A model generated the notes under the pieces. It was not told the DNA's origin, ran no database searches, and saw only the letters and a program-made list of their open reading frames with translations. Below, piece by piece: positions 17,241 through 30,970 of a stretch of 41,952 nucleotides of DNA. The position numbers and the translations under genes are program-made. Every line of letters starts with the position of its first letter. The stretch's first letter is position 1. This DNA comes from Bacteroidota bacterium (GTDB taxonomy: Bacteria; Bacteroidota; Bacteroidia; Palsa-948): the NCBI GenBank assembly GCA_023251625.1, contig JAHEYK010000007.1, positions 1 to 41,952 on the forward strand. Direction: 5' to 3'.

Positions 17241-18800
17241 TTATTCCGTCTCCGCGATCGCGATCATTAATTTTTCCAGTTTATCTTTCATTTCACCGGG
17301 ACTGCAATCGTAATTATTTACGATGATAGCAAAGGACAAAAGATTTCCTTTTTTTGTCGTAACGTACCCGGCATAACTGCGCACGCGGGTCATGTAGCCG
17401 CTTTTGGCGTGAAGGTTGTTTTCAGCAATGGTTCCTTTACATAATTTACCGAGGGAGCCGCTTTTTCCGGCTACAGGCAGCGATTCGTAAAATTTCTTGA
17501 AGAGGAGAGAGTCAAGTGTGATCACGCGAAGGATTTCTGAAAGTTGTTTCGTTGTAATTGCATTGAAGCGTGAAAGCCCGCAGCCATCTGCCATATAAAA
17601 TCCTTTCAGGTCAACACCTTTTGATTTCCAATAATTGGTTACGATGTCAATGCCTGTTTGATCTTCGCCAAATTTTGTTTTGTTCCAGGCAATGGTCTTT
17701 AAAAGTGTTTCGGCAAAAAGATTATTGCTTTGGATATTTGTCTGGTAAACAATTTTATCAAGCGTGTGCGAAGTTTGAACGTAGAGGCGTTTTCTCTTTT
17801 CTGTTTTGAAATTCCCGGCATTTGCTTTTAGTATGCGGATGGATGTAGCAGGCTTGTCGATCACCGCCCCCAATTTTCTCAGGGAAGAATCCAGCGACTG
17901 AGCACAGAACAGTGATGGATCAGGCACAGAGCCTTCCACTTCATAATTTGTTTTGTTGGCAGGGATCGTTCCCTTTACATAGCGCAGGGTTTCGTAAGGA
18001 GCGCCATAAATAAATGCATTGTCGAGATAAGCTCCGGTCCGTACATAGCTGGCTACCTTCATATTTGGAATTTCAGGCGTTATTTTTTTGATCCATGTTG
18101 TATCCCCCTTTTTAGGTCCTGATCGGTAGTAAAGAGAAAATTTATTGTCTTTGAAATTCAATCCGCTGGCACCGGCTCCATAATAATTTCCCATATCGCC
18201 CCATATCCAGGTAGAAGGAATTGTTTCGTCTTCAAAAATACTTGCATCAGCAATAATGGCTCCTTCAATTTTTTTTATCCCTTTTGTTGAAATGATCTTT
18301 GCCCATTGGTCTGTCAGCGGAATGGTATCACTCTTTTTTTTGAATGTTTCTGATTCAAGGGTGGGGTCTCCGCTCCCTTTGATATAAATATTTCCATGAA
18401 GAATTCCTGCCGCGGAATCTAATTTGCCATCGTATTCAAGCCGTGTTTCATATTTAAAATCCCAACCCAGTAAAGCGAGCGCGGTAGAAGTAGTGAGAAT
18501 TTTATGAGTGCTTGCCGGCACAAGCGACAGGCGACTGTTGTATTCGGCAAGAATGGAATCTTTTTTTACATCCAAAACACAAACGCTCCATGAAGCGTGG
18601 GTGAGGTCGGTGTCTTTCTGAAGGTTTACTATTTGAGCTTGTAATTTGCTGCCCGTAATTGGCTGACTGCTGGCTATTATACTGCTCCCTAAAATAAAAA
18701 TTCCAAGTAGTAAGATCCAAGTCCCAAATTTCAAGAATGAGCTGATATTGGCTGATTCATTGGAGCTTGGGGTTTGGAGTTTGGGACTTTGGACTTCCAT
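17241..18800 (-). CDS. dacB: D-alanyl-D-alanine carboxypeptidase/endopeptidase, PBP4 type (peptidase S13)
   Basis: 519 residues. The three active-site motifs of penicillin-binding proteins are present: STHK at residues 97-100 (nucleophile serine in ASTHKILTT), SNN at about 358-360 and KSG at about 466-468 (HAKSGYMTRVRSYAGY). The long insert between the first and second motif is typical for class C PBPs. The enzyme removes terminal D-Ala from peptidoglycan stem peptides and cuts cross-links in the periplasm. The N-terminal anchor FLKFGTWILLLGIFILGSSIIASS and the ~20 residues before it are encoded by a dispersed low-complexity repeat (see separate entry), so the exact start is uncertain. The ATG follows the stop of the pterin dehydratase gene with no gap, so both are one operon. 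Confidence 0.9.
   Translation of the reverse strand: MEVQSPKLQTPSSNESANISSFLKFGTWILLLGIFILGSSIIASSQPITGSKLQAQIVNLQKDTDLTHASWSVCVLDVKKDSILAEYNSRLSLVPASTHKILTTSTALALLGWDFKYETRLEYDGKLDSAAGILHGNIYIKGSGDPTLESETFKKKSDTIPLTDQWAKIISTKGIKKIEGAIIADASIFEDETIPSTWIWGDMGNYYGAGASGLNFKDNKFSLYYRSGPKKGDTTWIKKITPEIPNMKVASYVRTGAYLDNAFIYGAPYETLRYVKGTIPANKTNYEVEGSVPDPSLFCAQSLDSSLRKLGAVIDKPATSIRILKANAGNFKTEKRKRLYVQTSHTLDKIVYQTNIQSNNLFAETLLKTIAWNKTKFGEDQTGIDIVTNYWKSKGVDLKGFYMADGCGLSRFNAITTKQLSEILRVITLDSLLFKKFYESLPVAGKSGSLGKLCKGTIAENNLHAKSGYMTRVRSYAGYVTTKKGNLLSFAIIVNNYDCSPGEMKDKLEKLMIAIAETE
18640..18800. repeat. Dispersed low-complexity repeat forming the dacB 5' end
   Basis: Repeated words of the type CCAAACTCC, TTTGGGACTTGG and TTGGAATTT are normally seen between genes in Bacteroidota. 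Here a perfect 10-bp inverted pair (18719-18728 and 18780-18789, AAGTCCCAAA/TTTGGGACTT) lies inside the first 30 codons of dacB. On the - strand the TTTGGGACTTGG... arm encodes FGTWILLLGIF, the core of the signal anchor. Confidence 0.6.
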
Positions 18801-25317: not shown

Positions 25318-25362
25318 AACCCCGTTCAGTCCCGATAGCTATCGGGATGTTCGGGGTTTTTT
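25318..25362 (+). terminator. Rho-independent terminator after siaC, built around a palindromic repeat
   Basis: Outer stem AACCCCG (25318-25324) pairs with CGGGGTT (25352-25358). Inside it sits the perfect 18-bp palindrome TCCCGATAGCTATCGGGA (25330-25347), a repeat word common in Bacteroidota genomes. A run of six T follows (25357-25362). Confidence 0.85.
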
Positions 25363-26763: not shown

Positions 26764-26895
26764 GGATTTGCAATCCCCCGATGAGCGTAGTTTCTAAATA
26801 AAAAAGAAAAGCAGTTGGGCGTATGGCTCCGGCTGTGATCCGGCTTCCAGCCCTTTCGCCCTGCAGTTAGGCGAAGACCCTGCCGGCAGGCAGGT
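26764..26895. repeat. Cluster of dispersed palindromes after the ATPase gene
   Basis: Three inverted repeats lie close together: GGATT/AATCC at 26764-26776, TTCGCC (26855-26860) with GGCGAA (26870-26875), and the perfect palindrome CCTGCCGGCAGG (26879-26890). Words of this kind recur between genes in Bacteroidota. They fill the 265-bp gap before the toxin-antitoxin promoter; I see no gene here. Confidence 0.6.
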
Positions 26896-26967: not shown

Positions 26968-26997
26968 TTGCTAAACAATTTTAAATTCCTACCTTTG
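26968..26997 (+). promoter_or_regulatory. Promoter TTG-N19-TACCTTTG of the toxin-antitoxin pair
   Basis: TTG (26968-26970) and the exact -7 box TACCTTTG (26990-26997), 19 bp apart. The antitoxin ATG follows 18 nt later, so the leader is short. Confidence 0.75.
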
Positions 26998-27015
26998 AAG
27001 CACAAACACAACCCA

Positions 27016-27213
27016 ATGAGTTCAGTAGTAATAGCCCAATTAAACGACACAGACGCAAACCTCATCGTTCAGTTGATAAAAAAAGTCCATGGAAGGGTTA
27101 AGATACTCAAAGGAAAAGCTTTGGAAGATTTTCATTTCGGGCAGCTCATTGACAAAGGAATGGAGTCCGAAAACGTCTCTCTTTCTAAAATTCGGGCAAA
27201 ACTTCGTAAATGA
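27016..27213 (+). CDS. Probable antitoxin of a RelE-type toxin-antitoxin pair
   Basis: 65 residues from ATG 27016 (a frame from a TTG at 26968 would begin at the -33 element and is rejected). The protein (MSSVVIAQLNDTDANLIVQL...) is helical and charged and ends in the basic SLSKIRAKLRK. I do not recognise a DNA-binding motif such as RHH or HTH with certainty, so the antitoxin call comes from its size and place: its stop codon overlaps the start of the toxin (ATGA), the classic coupled order antitoxin-toxin. Confidence 0.75.
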   Translation: MSSVVIAQLNDTDANLIVQLIKKVHGRVKILKGKALEDFHFGQLIDKGMESENVSLSKIRAKLRK

Positions 27214-27488
27214 AGATTGTTGTTAAGGGCAGCTTTAACCGCGATGTGGATAAAGCCCGGAGCAAAGAGATTCGTCACGCCCTTGATAACAAAATTTCCC
27301 AAATAGAAAAAGCCGGGGATATTTCTCATATTACCGGGATAATTTTACTTGAAGGATATTCTCATCATTACAGGATAATCGTGAGGTCTCAAAATTATTC
27401 TTACCGTATTGGTGCAATTGTTCGCGGAGAAACGATTTGGTTAGTTCGCTTCCTGCCAAGAAGAATTGTTTATAAAGCATTTCCATAG
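27210..27488 (+). CDS. RelE/ParE-family toxin
   Basis: 92 residues, normal for the family. The C-terminal half shows the RelE-type core: YRIIVRSQNYSYRIGAIVRG, then TIWLVRFLPRRIVYKAF, with the arginines and aromatic residues typical of ribosome-dependent mRNA interferases. The first helix pair (VDKARSKEIRHALDNKISQI) fits also. The likely activity is cleavage of mRNA in the ribosome, blocked by the partner encoded just upstream through the ATGA overlap. A ParE-like gyrase inhibitor cannot be excluded from sequence alone. No terminator is evident behind it. Confidence 0.85.
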   Translation: MKIVVKGSFNRDVDKARSKEIRHALDNKISQIEKAGDISHITGIILLEGYSHHYRIIVRSQNYSYRIGAIVRGETIWLVRFLPRRIVYKAFP

Positions 27489-27803
27489 AAGGCTGCGCTC
27501 AGTTAAGCGTAGCTTGGAAATTACAGCCTTTTCCGAAACCCGATTTTTTCCGATCCCCCTCTTCAGGTAGGCTGCAAAGAGTATGATTTCCTACTGCTGT
27601 TCTCCAAATTCATCCGGGAAATGGAAACAGGCAGGCTGCGCCAACACAATTGGAAGATATTCAGCCCTAACTGGTAATAAAAAGAATCGCTTCTGCTTTT
27701 AAGTCCCGACCAGCACCCAACAATATTATTTGATGAATAAAAATGAAAATCAGCGCGAGCTGTGAGTGTTGCAGTGGGTAATTCCTTATAAATCACTCAT
27801 TAC

Positions 27804-27834
27804 ATTGAGTAAAATTACTCAATCCATTGAGTAA
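27804..27834. promoter_or_regulatory. Operator-like array of three alternating 9-bp half-sites
   Basis: ATTGAGTAA occurs at 27804-27812, as TTACTCAAT at 27815-27823 and again as ATTGAGTAA at 27826-27834. Each neighbouring pair is a perfect inverted repeat with a 2-nt spacer, and the half-sites are 11 bp apart, about one helical turn. This is what a dimeric or oligomeric DNA-binding protein would need. It ends directly in front of the DUF4143 remnant. Confidence 0.6.
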
Positions 27835-27994
27835 AATAATTATTGCATTAGAGGTTAAAACAAATGGGCGAGAAAAAATATTCGGAATGACTAAATTCGT
27901 AAACCAGTTCAAACCTCACAAGGCTTTACTGGTAGGGGAATCGGGTATAAAGTGGCAGGATTTTTTAATGTTAGATCCTGGAGAACTATTTTGA
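27833..27994 (+). pseudogene. Remnant of a second DUF4143 ATPase gene (C-terminal ~52 codons)
   Basis: The frame ending at TGA 27992-27994 reads IIIALEVKTNGREKIFGMTK, followed by VNQFKPHKALLVGESGIKWQ and DFLMLDPGELF. This is the usual end of DUF4143 ATPases (EVK core, then GM...FKPHK.LLVG.GI...FL). An in-frame stop at 27806-27808 and the lack of a start or ATPase part show that only the tail remains. It is not a copy of the end of the intact ATPase at 25611, which has a different terminal sequence. Probably the result of a deletion that joined the operator region to the tail. Confidence 0.7.
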
Positions 27995-28245: not shown

Positions 28246-30762
28246 TCATATTGGGTCAACGTCCGCCTGCACACGCAGGTATTTGTAGGCAGGATAGGCT
28301 TGGAGTTCAAGAATGGAAGAGCGGATCAGAGTTTTTGTTTTGTTGGGAGATTCTTCTTTGGCAATTTTAATCACTATTTTTTTATGATAGAGATTCTTTA
28401 TCCTTGATATAATAGGAAATTCAGGACCCAATACTCTTTTTCCAAAGGCGGTTCTGAGTTTTTGAGCGAGTTCATCTGAAGAGGCGTTTACTACATCGAG
28501 ATCTTTGTCAATAACAGTAAGCTCTATCAGGCGGTGAAATGGAGGGTACTGGAAGTTTTTTCGGTGCTCCAGCTCTTCGGTATACATTTTCTCAAAATCA
28601 TTTTTTATTACATGTTGAATGATAGGATGCTGAGGAGAATAGGTTTGAAGAACCACTTTTCCCCGTTTATCCTTGCGGCCGGATCTTCCTGACACTTGTG
28701 TGAGCATCTGAAAGCTGCGTTCATGCGAGCGGAAATCCGGAAAGTTCATCATTTGGTCAGCACTGAGGATGCCCACCAGGCTTACATGTTCAAAGTCTAA
28801 ACCCTTCGTGACCATTTGTGTGCCTACCAATATGTCTATGTTTCGTTCTTCAAAGTCGGTGAGCAGGCGCTCATGTGCAAAGCGGGAGCGGGTAGAGTCA
28901 TGATCCATACGGGCAATGCGTGCATCGGGGAAAAAAATTTCCAACTCTTCTTCTATTTTTTCAGTCCCAAAATTTTTCATCTGCATCTCCGGACTTCCGC
29001 AAGCGCTGCAGCTGGCCGGAATAGGAGTCGTATAGCCGCAATAATGGCAGCGCAGCTGCTGCCCTGTTTTGTGATACACTAAACTCACATCGCAGTTCTT
29101 GCACACCGGTGTCCAGCCGCAGGTTTTGCATTCAAGATAAGGGGCAAAGCCTCTGCGGTTCTGGAACAGGATCACCTGCTCTTTGTCTTTCAAAGCCTGT
29201 GCAATGTTATCGAGCAGAAGAGGGGAGAAGTGCGACTTCATTTTCTTCCGCTTGGTGGCATCTTTTATATCCGAGACAATAATTTCAGGAAGCTGCACAC
29301 CGCCGAAACGGGTTGTAAGTTCTGCAAAACCATATTTTCCTTCTTTTGAATTATAAAAACTTTCTACCGATGGGGTTGCAGAGCCGAGCAGCACTTTTGC
29401 TTTGTGGATGTTGGCAAGCATAATGGCGCTGTCCCTGGCGTGATACCTTGGCGCAGGGTCAAATTGTTTGTACGATGCATCGTGTTCTTCATCCACGATG
29501 ATCAAACCTAAATTTGAGTAGGGAAGAAACAGCGAAGAGCGTGCCCCAAGAATAATTTGAAATTGTTGATGTTTGACTTGAGACTTGGCACTTGAGACTT
29601 GGGAATTTAAAACTTGGTTCCAAACCTCCACCCGTTCATTCTCATTAAACCTGGAATGATAAACCCCCAACGCATCGCCAAAATATTTTTTTATACGACT
29701 GACTACCTGTGTAGTGAGGGCGATCTCAGGCAAAAGATAAAGAACCTGTTTGCCCTGCTTTAAAGTTTCCTCGATCAGCCTGACATAAACCTCGGTTTTT
29801 CCGCTGCTTGTTACTCCGTGCAACAATACTACTTCCTTGTCAGCCCATTCTTTTTTTATTTTTTTCAGAACATCTTCTTGTTCACTCGAAAGTGTTTTGC
29901 TGTTTGACGATGGATCGTGTGAAGCGAACCGGCCTGTTTCTTTTTCGTATATCTCCAATATGTTTTTCTTCACTAATCCTTCAATAACTGCGGGAGCAGC
30001 ATTTGTCTTTTTTAGAAGTTCTGCCTTTTTCATTCCTAACACTTCTCCTTCCTTTTGAGAAGAGGACAGGGGTTGGGTGGAATGCACAAACTCCATCAGC
30101 ACCTCCAGTTGCTTGAAAGCTCTTTTTTCTAATTCGTCAAAAGTATTTTTTAGGTTCTTCTCATCCGAAGCAAATTTTGTGAGCCGAATGAATTCTTCAA
30201 TTTTGGGCTTAAACTTCTCCTTTAATTCTTCGTGGATACTTAGGATGCCTTTTTCTAGTAGCGATTTTATAATTGAAAGAGCATTTTTGTGTTCTGTAAT
30301 TTCCTCAACTTCATTTAGTGTGAGTACTTTGTTTTTATCCAGGGCTTCGCAGACAAGAAATTCATCGTCAGACAAGTCGCCCCTCGTCTCTTGTTCCTCG
30401 TCCCTTAAAATGAGTTTCGTCTCGCTCGATAATTTCAACCCTGAGGGTAGCGCTGCATTCATTACTTCCCCGATATGGCACATATAATATTCCGATATCC
30501 ATTTCCAGAGTTCAAACTGCTTTTGGTTGACAATGGGCTCGGCATCCAGAATGCTTTCAATGGGTTTAGCTTTATATAGTTCAGGTTTATTGCTGTGGAC
30601 TTTATAGACAATAGCGGTGTATAGTTTTTTCTTTCCAAACTGTACAACTACACGCTGTCCGGGCCTTACCTTGTTTTGAAGTGCTTCAGGAACGGAATAG
30701 GTGTAAAAATTAGGAACAGCCAAAGGCAAGATCACATCAGCAAAAAGGCTTTCTTTTTCCAT
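28246..30762 (-). CDS. priA: Primosomal helicase PriA
   Basis: 838 residues. The 3'-end-binding domain starts with FADVILPLAVPNFYTYSVPE, which fixes the ATG at 30762. Walker A is HGVTSSGKTEVY and Walker B is IIVDEEHDASYKQ; LGSATPSVES and GTQMVTKGLDFEHVSLVGIL are the later helicase motifs. Eight cysteines in CKTCGWTPVCKNCDVS and CHYCG...CSACGS bind the two zinc ions. PriA restarts stalled replication forks by unwinding and loading the replisome. One oddity: at residues ~384-398 the sequence SQVSSAKSQVKHQQ interrupts the usual short loop before IILGARSSLF and is encoded by a dispersed repeat (separate entry). Its -7 box ends 5 nt before the ATG. Confidence 0.97.
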   Translation of the reverse strand: MEKESLFADVILPLAVPNFYTYSVPEALQNKVRPGQRVVVQFGKKKLYTAIVYKVHSNKPELYKAKPIESILDAEPIVNQKQFELWKWISEYYMCHIGEVMNAALPSGLKLSSETKLILRDEEQETRGDLSDDEFLVCEALDKNKVLTLNEVEEITEHKNALSIIKSLLEKGILSIHEELKEKFKPKIEEFIRLTKFASDEKNLKNTFDELEKRAFKQLEVLMEFVHSTQPLSSSQKEGEVLGMKKAELLKKTNAAPAVIEGLVKKNILEIYEKETGRFASHDPSSNSKTLSSEQEDVLKKIKKEWADKEVVLLHGVTSSGKTEVYVRLIEETLKQGKQVLYLLPEIALTTQVVSRIKKYFGDALGVYHSRFNENERVEVWNQVLNSQVSSAKSQVKHQQFQIILGARSSLFLPYSNLGLIIVDEEHDASYKQFDPAPRYHARDSAIMLANIHKAKVLLGSATPSVESFYNSKEGKYGFAELTTRFGGVQLPEIIVSDIKDATKRKKMKSHFSPLLLDNIAQALKDKEQVILFQNRRGFAPYLECKTCGWTPVCKNCDVSLVYHKTGQQLRCHYCGYTTPIPASCSACGSPEMQMKNFGTEKIEEELEIFFPDARIARMDHDSTRSRFAHERLLTDFEERNIDILVGTQMVTKGLDFEHVSLVGILSADQMMNFPDFRSHERSFQMLTQVSGRSGRKDKRGKVVLQTYSPQHPIIQHVIKNDFEKMYTEELEHRKNFQYPPFHRLIELTVIDKDLDVVNASSDELAQKLRTAFGKRVLGPEFPIISRIKNLYHKKIVIKIAKEESPNKTKTLIRSSILELQAYPAYKYLRVQADVDPI
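29564..29618. repeat. Low-complexity repeat inserted in the priA coding sequence
   Basis: GACTTGAGACTTGG and CACTTGAGACTTGG stand in tandem (core about 29575-29603). Such words are typical of intergenic repeat tracts in Bacteroidota. Here they are read through in frame as SQVSSAKSQVKHQQ between the strands leading to helicase motif Ia and the ILGARS segment. Confidence 0.7.
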
Positions 30763-30775: not shown

Positions 30776-30822
30776 GAGAATTAACCATAAAAGGAATCTT
30801 TAGTGAGAATATGTAAATACAG

Positions 30823-30912
30823 TTTCGCGCAAGGACGCAAGGATCGCCAAGAAACAGCCAATACAAATAAAATTGCATTCAAAGTCTTTGCGGTCTTTGC
30901 ACCTTTGCGAGA
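30823..30912. repeat. Dispersed inverted repeat of GCAAAG/CTTTGC words
   Basis: The left arm (CGCGCAAGGACGCAAGG) and right arm (CTTTGCGGTCTTTGCACC...) are imperfect reverse complements with about 45 bp between them. This is a known intergenic repeat style of Bacteroidota. It lies between priA and the metal regulator gene. Confidence 0.6.
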
Positions 30913-30970
30913 GATGTGAAAATGAAGGGTATATAGAATAATTGGTTAAATAAAATTTAGGTGGCTCTAA

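Follow-up and report, generated by a model that had tools for sequence, protein, structure and literature searches.

Tandem heptamer arrays in priA and other protein-coding genes of a Bacteroidia genus

How does a replication restart gene come to carry tandemly repeated DNA within an intact reading frame, and is this gene a special case? The question is raised by priA, which lies in a stretch of 41,952 nucleotides (contig JAHEYK010000007.1, positions 1 to 41,952, assembly GCA_023251625.1) from a Bacteroidota bacterium of the GTDB lineage Bacteroidia; Palsa-948. This whole stretch is referred to as the window. A first-pass annotation made from the sequence alone had proposed a junk-like, in-frame repeat insertion in the PriA loop that precedes the ILGARS motif. 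The PriA case is one among many, and the interest lies in the wider pattern rather than in PriA alone. Heptamer arrays are probably an abundant class of sequence in this genus that has lodged at protein sites of low constraint, including a tolerant surface loop of PriA.

The open reading frame (ORF) of priA scores 592.8 bits against the profile TIGR00595 (cut-off, 230.35) and 774.2 bits against NF004066, which is below the cut-off of 813 for that profile. The closest solved chains found by sequence search are PriA, and the top nine Foldseek matches of the AlphaFold model are all PriA. Cysteine pairs of PriA bind zinc. The window protein shares the PriA fold, the helicase motifs and the invariant cysteine pairs with the structures PDB 4NL4 and 6DGD. 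Unlike these two proteins, it has 12 extra residues (about 388-399) in the loop that leads from the ERVEVWN helix to the GARS strand.

Table 1 Positions of the heptamer arrays and PriA loops in the window (pLDDT, predicted local distance difference test)
Feature	Position	Strand	Description	Basis
priA, replication restart helicase PriA	28246..30762	-	838 aa, reading frame intact	TIGR00595, solved relatives, fold
Hypervariable PriA loop, ERVEVWN helix to GARS motif	29548..29616	-		Alignment; AlphaFold pLDDT <50 at residues 389-398
Tandem heptamer array, four units	29575..29602	-	Core ACTTG on +, CAAGT on coding strand; codes for SQVSSAKSQV	
Second lineage-specific PriA insert, STQPLSSSQKEGEVLGM, 17 aa	30031..30081	-		Alignment; AlphaFold pLDDT <50 at residues 235-240
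Third PriA loop	30370..30411	-	Degenerate heptamers AGGGACG AGGAACA AGAGACG AGGGGCG	
Degenerate heptamer array (TTGGAGC/TTGGGGT...)	18760..18796		Of the class of the PriA array; at the start of ORF 17244-18800 (-) or just upstream of it	

The heptamer array of the PriA loop

The analysis confirmed an array of in-frame tandem heptamers inside this conserved replication restart gene (Table 1). On the coding strand the units read CAAGTCT CAAGTGC CAAGTCT CAAGTC, corresponding to three consecutive ACTTGNN units followed by one further ACTTGG. Tandem Repeats Finder reports a period of 7 at 29575-29601 and a period of 14, with a 100% match, at 29576-29602. The array peptide, which is part of the wider peptide WNQVLNSQVSSAKSQVKHQQFQIILGARS, stands in the loop before ILGARS, as the first-pass annotation had it; the interval quoted there, 29564-29618, contains the array but also includes flanking DNA that is not repeated. 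The copies are imperfect, which argues against a phase-variable contingency locus.

A hydrophilic, low-complexity linker could appear periodic by chance or through ordinary codon usage, and the 14-mer of the array is indeed common enough in the window to suit such an account: with up to three mismatches it has four matches there against 2.84 expected, a number equalled by 33 of 100 shuffles. Because the 14-mer alone is at chance level, the signal lies in the tandem register and not in the word. At lag 7 the loop DNA has a self-match score of 15, against at most 4 at all other lags from 4 to 12, and none of 2000 mononucleotide shuffles reaches the lag-7 score (p = 0.0005). Together with the genus-wide excess at lag 7 and its harmonic described below, this makes a chance origin exceedingly improbable. 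Elsewhere in the genome, local BLAST finds matches of the loop DNA over 26-29 bases at 90-93% identity in arrays on three further contigs (L072, L075 and L076).

The loop has been compared among relatives, with G000 denoting this genome, G001-G006 six congeners, and G011 and G023 members of other families. The flanks are conserved and the loop length is highly variable in all 30 PriA sequences aligned. A loop expression that matched 94 of 110 PriA proteins and left 16 unmatched gives lengths of 10-44 residues, with 12-15 residues in 61 of the 94 and 24 in the window protein. The early statement that a handful of residues is normal for PriA at this position therefore suits that majority, which comprises many Bacteroidota, but not the congeners, whose loops measure 9, 16, 23, 27, 28 and 35 residues against 23 in G000 when tighter delimiters are used. 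Homologous sequence of equal length in sister proteins had been named as evidence against an insertion; in length, one of the six congeners (G004, 23 residues) agrees and aligns to the window loop without gaps, but its residues differ.

In the loops of G000, G001, G002 and G004, lag 7 scores highest (p = 0.0005, 0.002, 0.0015 and 0.0185, respectively; all loop p values are from mononucleotide shuffles and are uncorrected), the signal of G004 being weak. The insert thus holds a real heptamer array but is not singular. In the loop of G006, which has nine residues, lag 7 is best without being significant (p = 0.06); in that of G003 it ranks second after lag 4 (p = 0.0265); and in that of G005 there is no lag-7 signal (p = 0.31) and palindromic DNA is found instead, the core of which recurs at two further places of the G005 stretches by local BLAST. 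The words differ by species, being CAAGTCT in G000 and CAGGAGT-like in G002. The G003 loop consists of CAAGTCACAAG followed by palindromic sequence around CCTGCCTGCCGGCAAGGCAGG; this palindrome is not claimed as a proven repeat because local BLAST of the loop against stretches of its own genome gave no match. Outside the family, the G011 loop contains a heptamer array plus its inverted copy, and in G023 an apparent palindromic element breaks up the heptamers; the G023 protein (L023) carries heptamer arrays in all three variable loops of PriA, with different words. The insert is therefore not unique to this genome, and the congener loops do not support a recent insertion.

The loop sequence might alternatively have been selected for a function, such as binding of a species-specific partner or tuning of PriA, with the repeat being incidental. 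Its position in the helicase core, shortly ahead of the DEEH motif, would fit such a role. However, neither its residues nor its length (9-35 residues) are conserved among congeners with conserved flanks, AlphaFold models it with low confidence, and the 7-nt periodicity of the DNA is found across many unrelated genes, so that selection for function is a very unlikely cause. The AlphaFold model, built on 24 sequences, has a mean pLDDT of 84.1 and three segments of at least three residues below 50: one coincides with the second insert, one with the array, and one (residues 427-435) with conserved sequence directly after the DEEH motif. An artefact of assembly or binning would be conceivable for a draft genome of 178 contigs and 79% completeness. 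It can scarcely be credited, however, since arrays within ORFs occur in stretches of six genomes of the genus and the PriA frame is intact between conserved flanks.

Two other loops of the window protein were compared in the same way. At the site of the second insert, G005 has 14 different residues and G001-G004 have 8. A repeat origin of this insert is only suspected, and it is not claimed as a proven repeat because BLAST against the examined G000 stretches found only the insert itself. In the third loop, which is no longer than in most congeners, lag 7 is best (p = 0.0015 against shuffles); BLAST against the same stretches again found only the loop itself, and G004 has a strong heptamer array with a different word at this place.

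The placement of arrays within PriA was examined in 102 of the 110 genes, eight being dropped because no ORF with both motifs was found. All seven lag-7 arrays scoring at least 10, which come from four genes, fall inside the three loops, which make up 68 of the 838 residues; with the score limit unchanged, 0 of 5 arrays at lag 6 and 1 of 5 at lag 12 do so. These loops had been named after the arrays were seen, and the test was repeated with zones drawn from alignment gaps only. Such length-variable zones, covering 19% of the residues, contain all nine lag-7 arrays scoring at least 9, from six genes, against 4 of 20 arrays for the pooled comparison lags 5, 6, 8 and 9.

Period-7 arrays across the genus and the peptides they encode

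The genus sample comprises 741 kb in stretches that were not picked for repeats, from six genomes, with five stretches (the window, L208, L212, L221 and L229) taken for PriA. ORF calling on the draft assemblies followed a simple rule, longest first, and species of one genus are non-independent. A period of seven dominates this sample: there are 75 arrays at lag 7, 55 at its harmonic, lag 14, 20 at lag 8 and at most 17 at each remaining lag from 4 to 16. In G000 alone, 26 arrays are found at lag 7, 18 at lag 14 and no more than 6 at any other lag, and shuffled G000 DNA gives none at lag 7. The excess is small in other Bacteroidia, where one sample of 686 kb has 22 arrays at lag 7 against 20, 19, 18 and 17 at lags 9, 14, 12 and 8, and another of 627 kb has 28 at lag 7 and no more than 18 at any other lag.

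Arrays lie within ORFs of at least 100 aa in 48 of the 75 genus cases and within ORFs of at least 200 aa in 41. The former share exceeds the 14 of 50 found in other Bacteroidia (Fisher p = 1e-4). Genes are still poor in arrays per base, as ORFs of at least 100 aa make up 90.5% of the genus DNA (p = 5e-10). When all genus stretches are taken, including those picked for repeats (1.215 Mb), 113 of 175 arrays are in such ORFs.

The word itself is less distinctive than the period. Three tandem ACTTGNN units occur at eight places in G000 (14 overlapping matches), and the reversed control pattern has eight matches. Tandem ACTTGNN arrays were found in all seven genus genomes searched. A sample of 80 genomes from the class yielded ACTTGNN x3 in nine, three of which belong to this genus. 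The reversed control word is also frequent in certain genomes, G011 among them (40 matches), and the words therefore seem to be lineage-specific. They also vary between sites within one genome. Orthologous array sites show the same array type with other words, palindromic sequence or a shorter loop, and a few keep the word; one such site has AAGTTCC in G006 and AAGTTCA/AAGTCAA in G003, and G000 and G004 are shorter there by eight residues.

Of the 48 ORF arrays in the stretches not picked for repeats, 19 start within the first 30 residues, against an expectation of at most 10.3% (p = 1e-7), and 16 of 41 do so when ORFs of at least 200 aa are considered. N-terminal arrays encode hydrophobic peptides: across all genus stretches the mean hydropathy exceeds 1 in 25 of 39 N-terminal array peptides against 7 of 74 internal ones. 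Many of them look like signal peptides, for example MRIHCLLPTAYCLLSFFF, and LLASGFWLLASGC in a GldH lipoprotein. A signal-peptide-like N-terminus of two congeners (L080 19050 and L191 9860) contains a sequence reading VTLSVVEGS, and the G000 orthologue (L070) has a heptamer array.

Internal arrays occur in sorting tails and in conserved enzymes. Six come after a YPNP-like motif, and all three proteins of this type that were checked have a type IX sorting domain, TIGR04183, spanning the array. The idea that this repeat family enters genes and is tolerated there has held up, given the intact frame of PriA, the tandem arrays of its word in all seven genus genomes searched and the arrays in other genes, three of which are described here. 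In ArgS, the array is of CAAGTCT in G005, and the orthologue of G001 has TTACAGA-like units. A UvrA-like ORF of G000 (L189 9305-11119), which scores below the curated cut-off because a contig end cuts it, has two separate arrays, and the G006 protein is nine residues shorter at the first of them. A topoisomerase IV/gyrase A-type protein of G000 also has an internal array, as do further proteins.

Reading frame, strand and origin of the arrays

A tandem heptamer is read alike in all frames. Whichever of the three frames is used, (CAAGTCT)n cyclically encodes QVSSLKS and (CTTCTGC)n encodes LLPSAFC. The test of frame preference suggested at the outset is thus uninformative in principle: no preference is expected, because 7 = 1 mod 3 gives the same heptapeptide in every frame, and the CAAGT copies of ORF arrays are distributed 29/30/27 over the frames. 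The strand does make a difference, as (AGACTTG)n has a stop each 21 bases in every frame and (GGACTTG)n has none; the sense strand of ORF arrays reads CAAGT in 21 cases and ACTTG in 4. Strand and total length, not frame, are what matter for arrays inside genes. Since every unit whose length is not a multiple of three is frame-neutral in this way, frame neutrality explains tolerance and not the number seven.

These properties fit the preferred reading of arrays lodged at sites of low constraint. A DNA-level process would yield tandem 7-nt copies, either in situ or copied from another array, with words differing by lineage. A stop-free word would give the same heptapeptide in three frames, making the phase of insertion irrelevant, and only the total length would have to be a multiple of three. 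Selection may then retain arrays at low-constraint sites where the peptide fits: hydrophilic words (sense CAAGT) would be kept in loops, and hydrophobic ones (sense CTTCTGC, CTACTGC) in signal-peptide-like N-termini. The array would later decay and its word turn over, while the site could stay a sink for other sequences. The data directly show the repeat with its frame, the dominance of period 7, the placement in variable loops and hydrophobic N-termini, and the different words or elements that congeners have at matching sites; the copying mechanism, its 7-nt step and the near-neutrality of the arrays are inferred.

Several observations weigh against this reading. G005 (4 arrays) and G006 (7 arrays, against 8 at lag 8) individually show little period-7 excess. 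In the gap-defined variable zones of PriA, lags 12 (5 of 10) and 15 (2 of 4) also exceed the 19% share. Only 3 of 13 G000 arrays are N-terminal (ORFs of at least 200 aa), so that the N-terminal enrichment is carried more by the congeners; lag 8 is N-terminal in 5 of 10 cases as well, and the enrichment may be a general property of signal peptides. In some N-terminal cases, such as that at 18760-18796 of the window, the ORF may have been extended too far, and the array at that place may lie upstream of the true start codon. Moreover, several congener loops are weakly heptameric, so that the PriA array may be either a gain in this genome or an inherited array in decay.

Alternatively, the array may have come as a unit by transposition-like insertion, in the style of Rickettsia palindromic elements, and have spread as selfish DNA. 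Arrays of the same word are scattered through the genome, other palindromic families sit in ORFs here, and the array with its inverted copy in the G011 loop has the form that a mobile palindrome might have. Furthermore, 9 of 26 G000 arrays have an inverted 14-mer within 150 bp (at most two mismatches), whereas the reversed control gives 1 of 26. However, such partners are scarcer in congeners (10 of 49 arrays), and the PriA array has no good one within 150 bp, the best 14-mer having four mismatches and the control five. No constant ends or fixed length are seen, words vary among sites of one genome, and orthologous sites of different species carry different words. Insertion as a unit is therefore unlikely, though less so than selection of the loop for a function.

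Beyond passive lodging at low-constraint sites, the heptamer process might act as a standing supply of protein parts, from which secreted proteins and conserved enzymes repeatedly gain working segments while the words at a given site are replaced from one species to another. This broader proposal is speculative and rather doubtful. Under it, pyrimidine-rich words would provide signal-peptide cores (LLPTAYC, LLPSAFC, LLASGFW), and other words would code for strands in type IX sorting tails or for hydrophilic loops. The array positions suggest that signal peptides and sorting tails could be built from repeat DNA.

Known heptamer repeats and other features of the window

Heptamers of cyanobacteria are known as STRR. 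By the usual marks of such repeats, the genus arrays have a 7-nt unit in at least two tandem copies and many dispersed arrays of the same word, but they are not mainly intergenic, 48 of 75 lying in ORFs of at least 100 aa. Heptamers known from bacteria include GGGAATC in Xanthomonas and GGGGAYT in Nostoc (PMC4692102). According to that paper, an over-representation of heptamers among bacterial repeats was reported in 2007, detailed literature is lacking, and polymerase slippage tied to polymerase contact length is the proposed cause. TAACTGA repeats occur in Beggiatoaceae, Cyanobacteria and a few Bacteroidetes (MacGregor 2015, PMC4679880); those of BOGUAY are described as mainly intergenic, the cases within ORFs mostly concern protein ends or hypothetical proteins, and reverse-orientation arrays within ORFs are noted. 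A search of PMC4060949 turned up nothing on heptamers.

The genus arrays resemble these heptamers in the 7-nt unit, the degenerate copies, the many dispersed short arrays, the occasional inverted pairs and the lineage-dependent words. They differ from TAACTGA of BOGUAY in that most are within ORFs, where they occupy hydrophobic N-termini, sorting tails and internal loops of conserved enzymes among other places, and in that the word here is ACTTGNN and one genome has many words. Rickettsia palindromic elements, of about 150 bp and in ten described families, are likewise short repeats in frame in unrelated coding genes (Ogata et al. 2000 and 2002, as cited in the review PMC10969869). By comparison, the arrays here are mostly tandem 7-mers of 20-50 bp without fixed ends and with all frames alike, the PriA array being 28 bp. 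In the open-licence literature, no paper was found on heptamers in Bacteroidota signal peptides or in PriA, nor on palindromic in-frame repeats of Bacteroidetes, the CAAGTCT word or the PNPSPKGEG peptide; for PriA combined with palindromic elements, one paper on Wolbachia is listed (PMC4224334).

Arrays inside the conserved genes of one genus offer a direct test of heptamer over-representation. Orthologous proteins log gain, loss and change of word, the frame requires net multiples of 21 bp, and a protein model indicates the array-tolerant sites. There is also a practical warning: in these genomes, a variable loop or N-terminus can consist of repeat DNA, which misleads alignments.

Palindromic families form another class of repeats. 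Palindromes with the cores CTCTCC..GGAGAG and CCTTCCC..GGGAAGG lie in frame inside ORFs and encode LTPNPSPKGEG-like or PSLGEGLGMGF-like peptides; the stretches concerned are L075, L078, L174, L179, L186 and L188 in G000 and L085, L086, L089, L208 and L219 in congeners. The CTCTCC..GGAGAG family is within ORFs in 8 of 8 cases in G000, and four control palindromes have one match across all stretches. The palindromes CCCGATAGCTATCGGG and CCTGCCGGCAGG stand at 25331-25346 and 26879-26890 of the window, and matching cores recur in the genus stretches, six and two times, respectively, in those of G000; the PriA loop of G003 contains similar, though not identical, sequences.

Between priA and the next gene (30800-30920), CGCAAGGACGCAAGGA is followed further on by the inverted CTTTGCGGTCTTTGCACCTTTGCG, which by eye resembles another intergenic repeat. 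Tandem 22-bp palindromic units of the TACTCAATnnATTGAGTA type lie in non-coding DNA at 27790-27837, after a pair of small genes (26968-27488). This pair looks toxin-antitoxin-like by eye, and the 22-bp units are possible candidates for operator sites.

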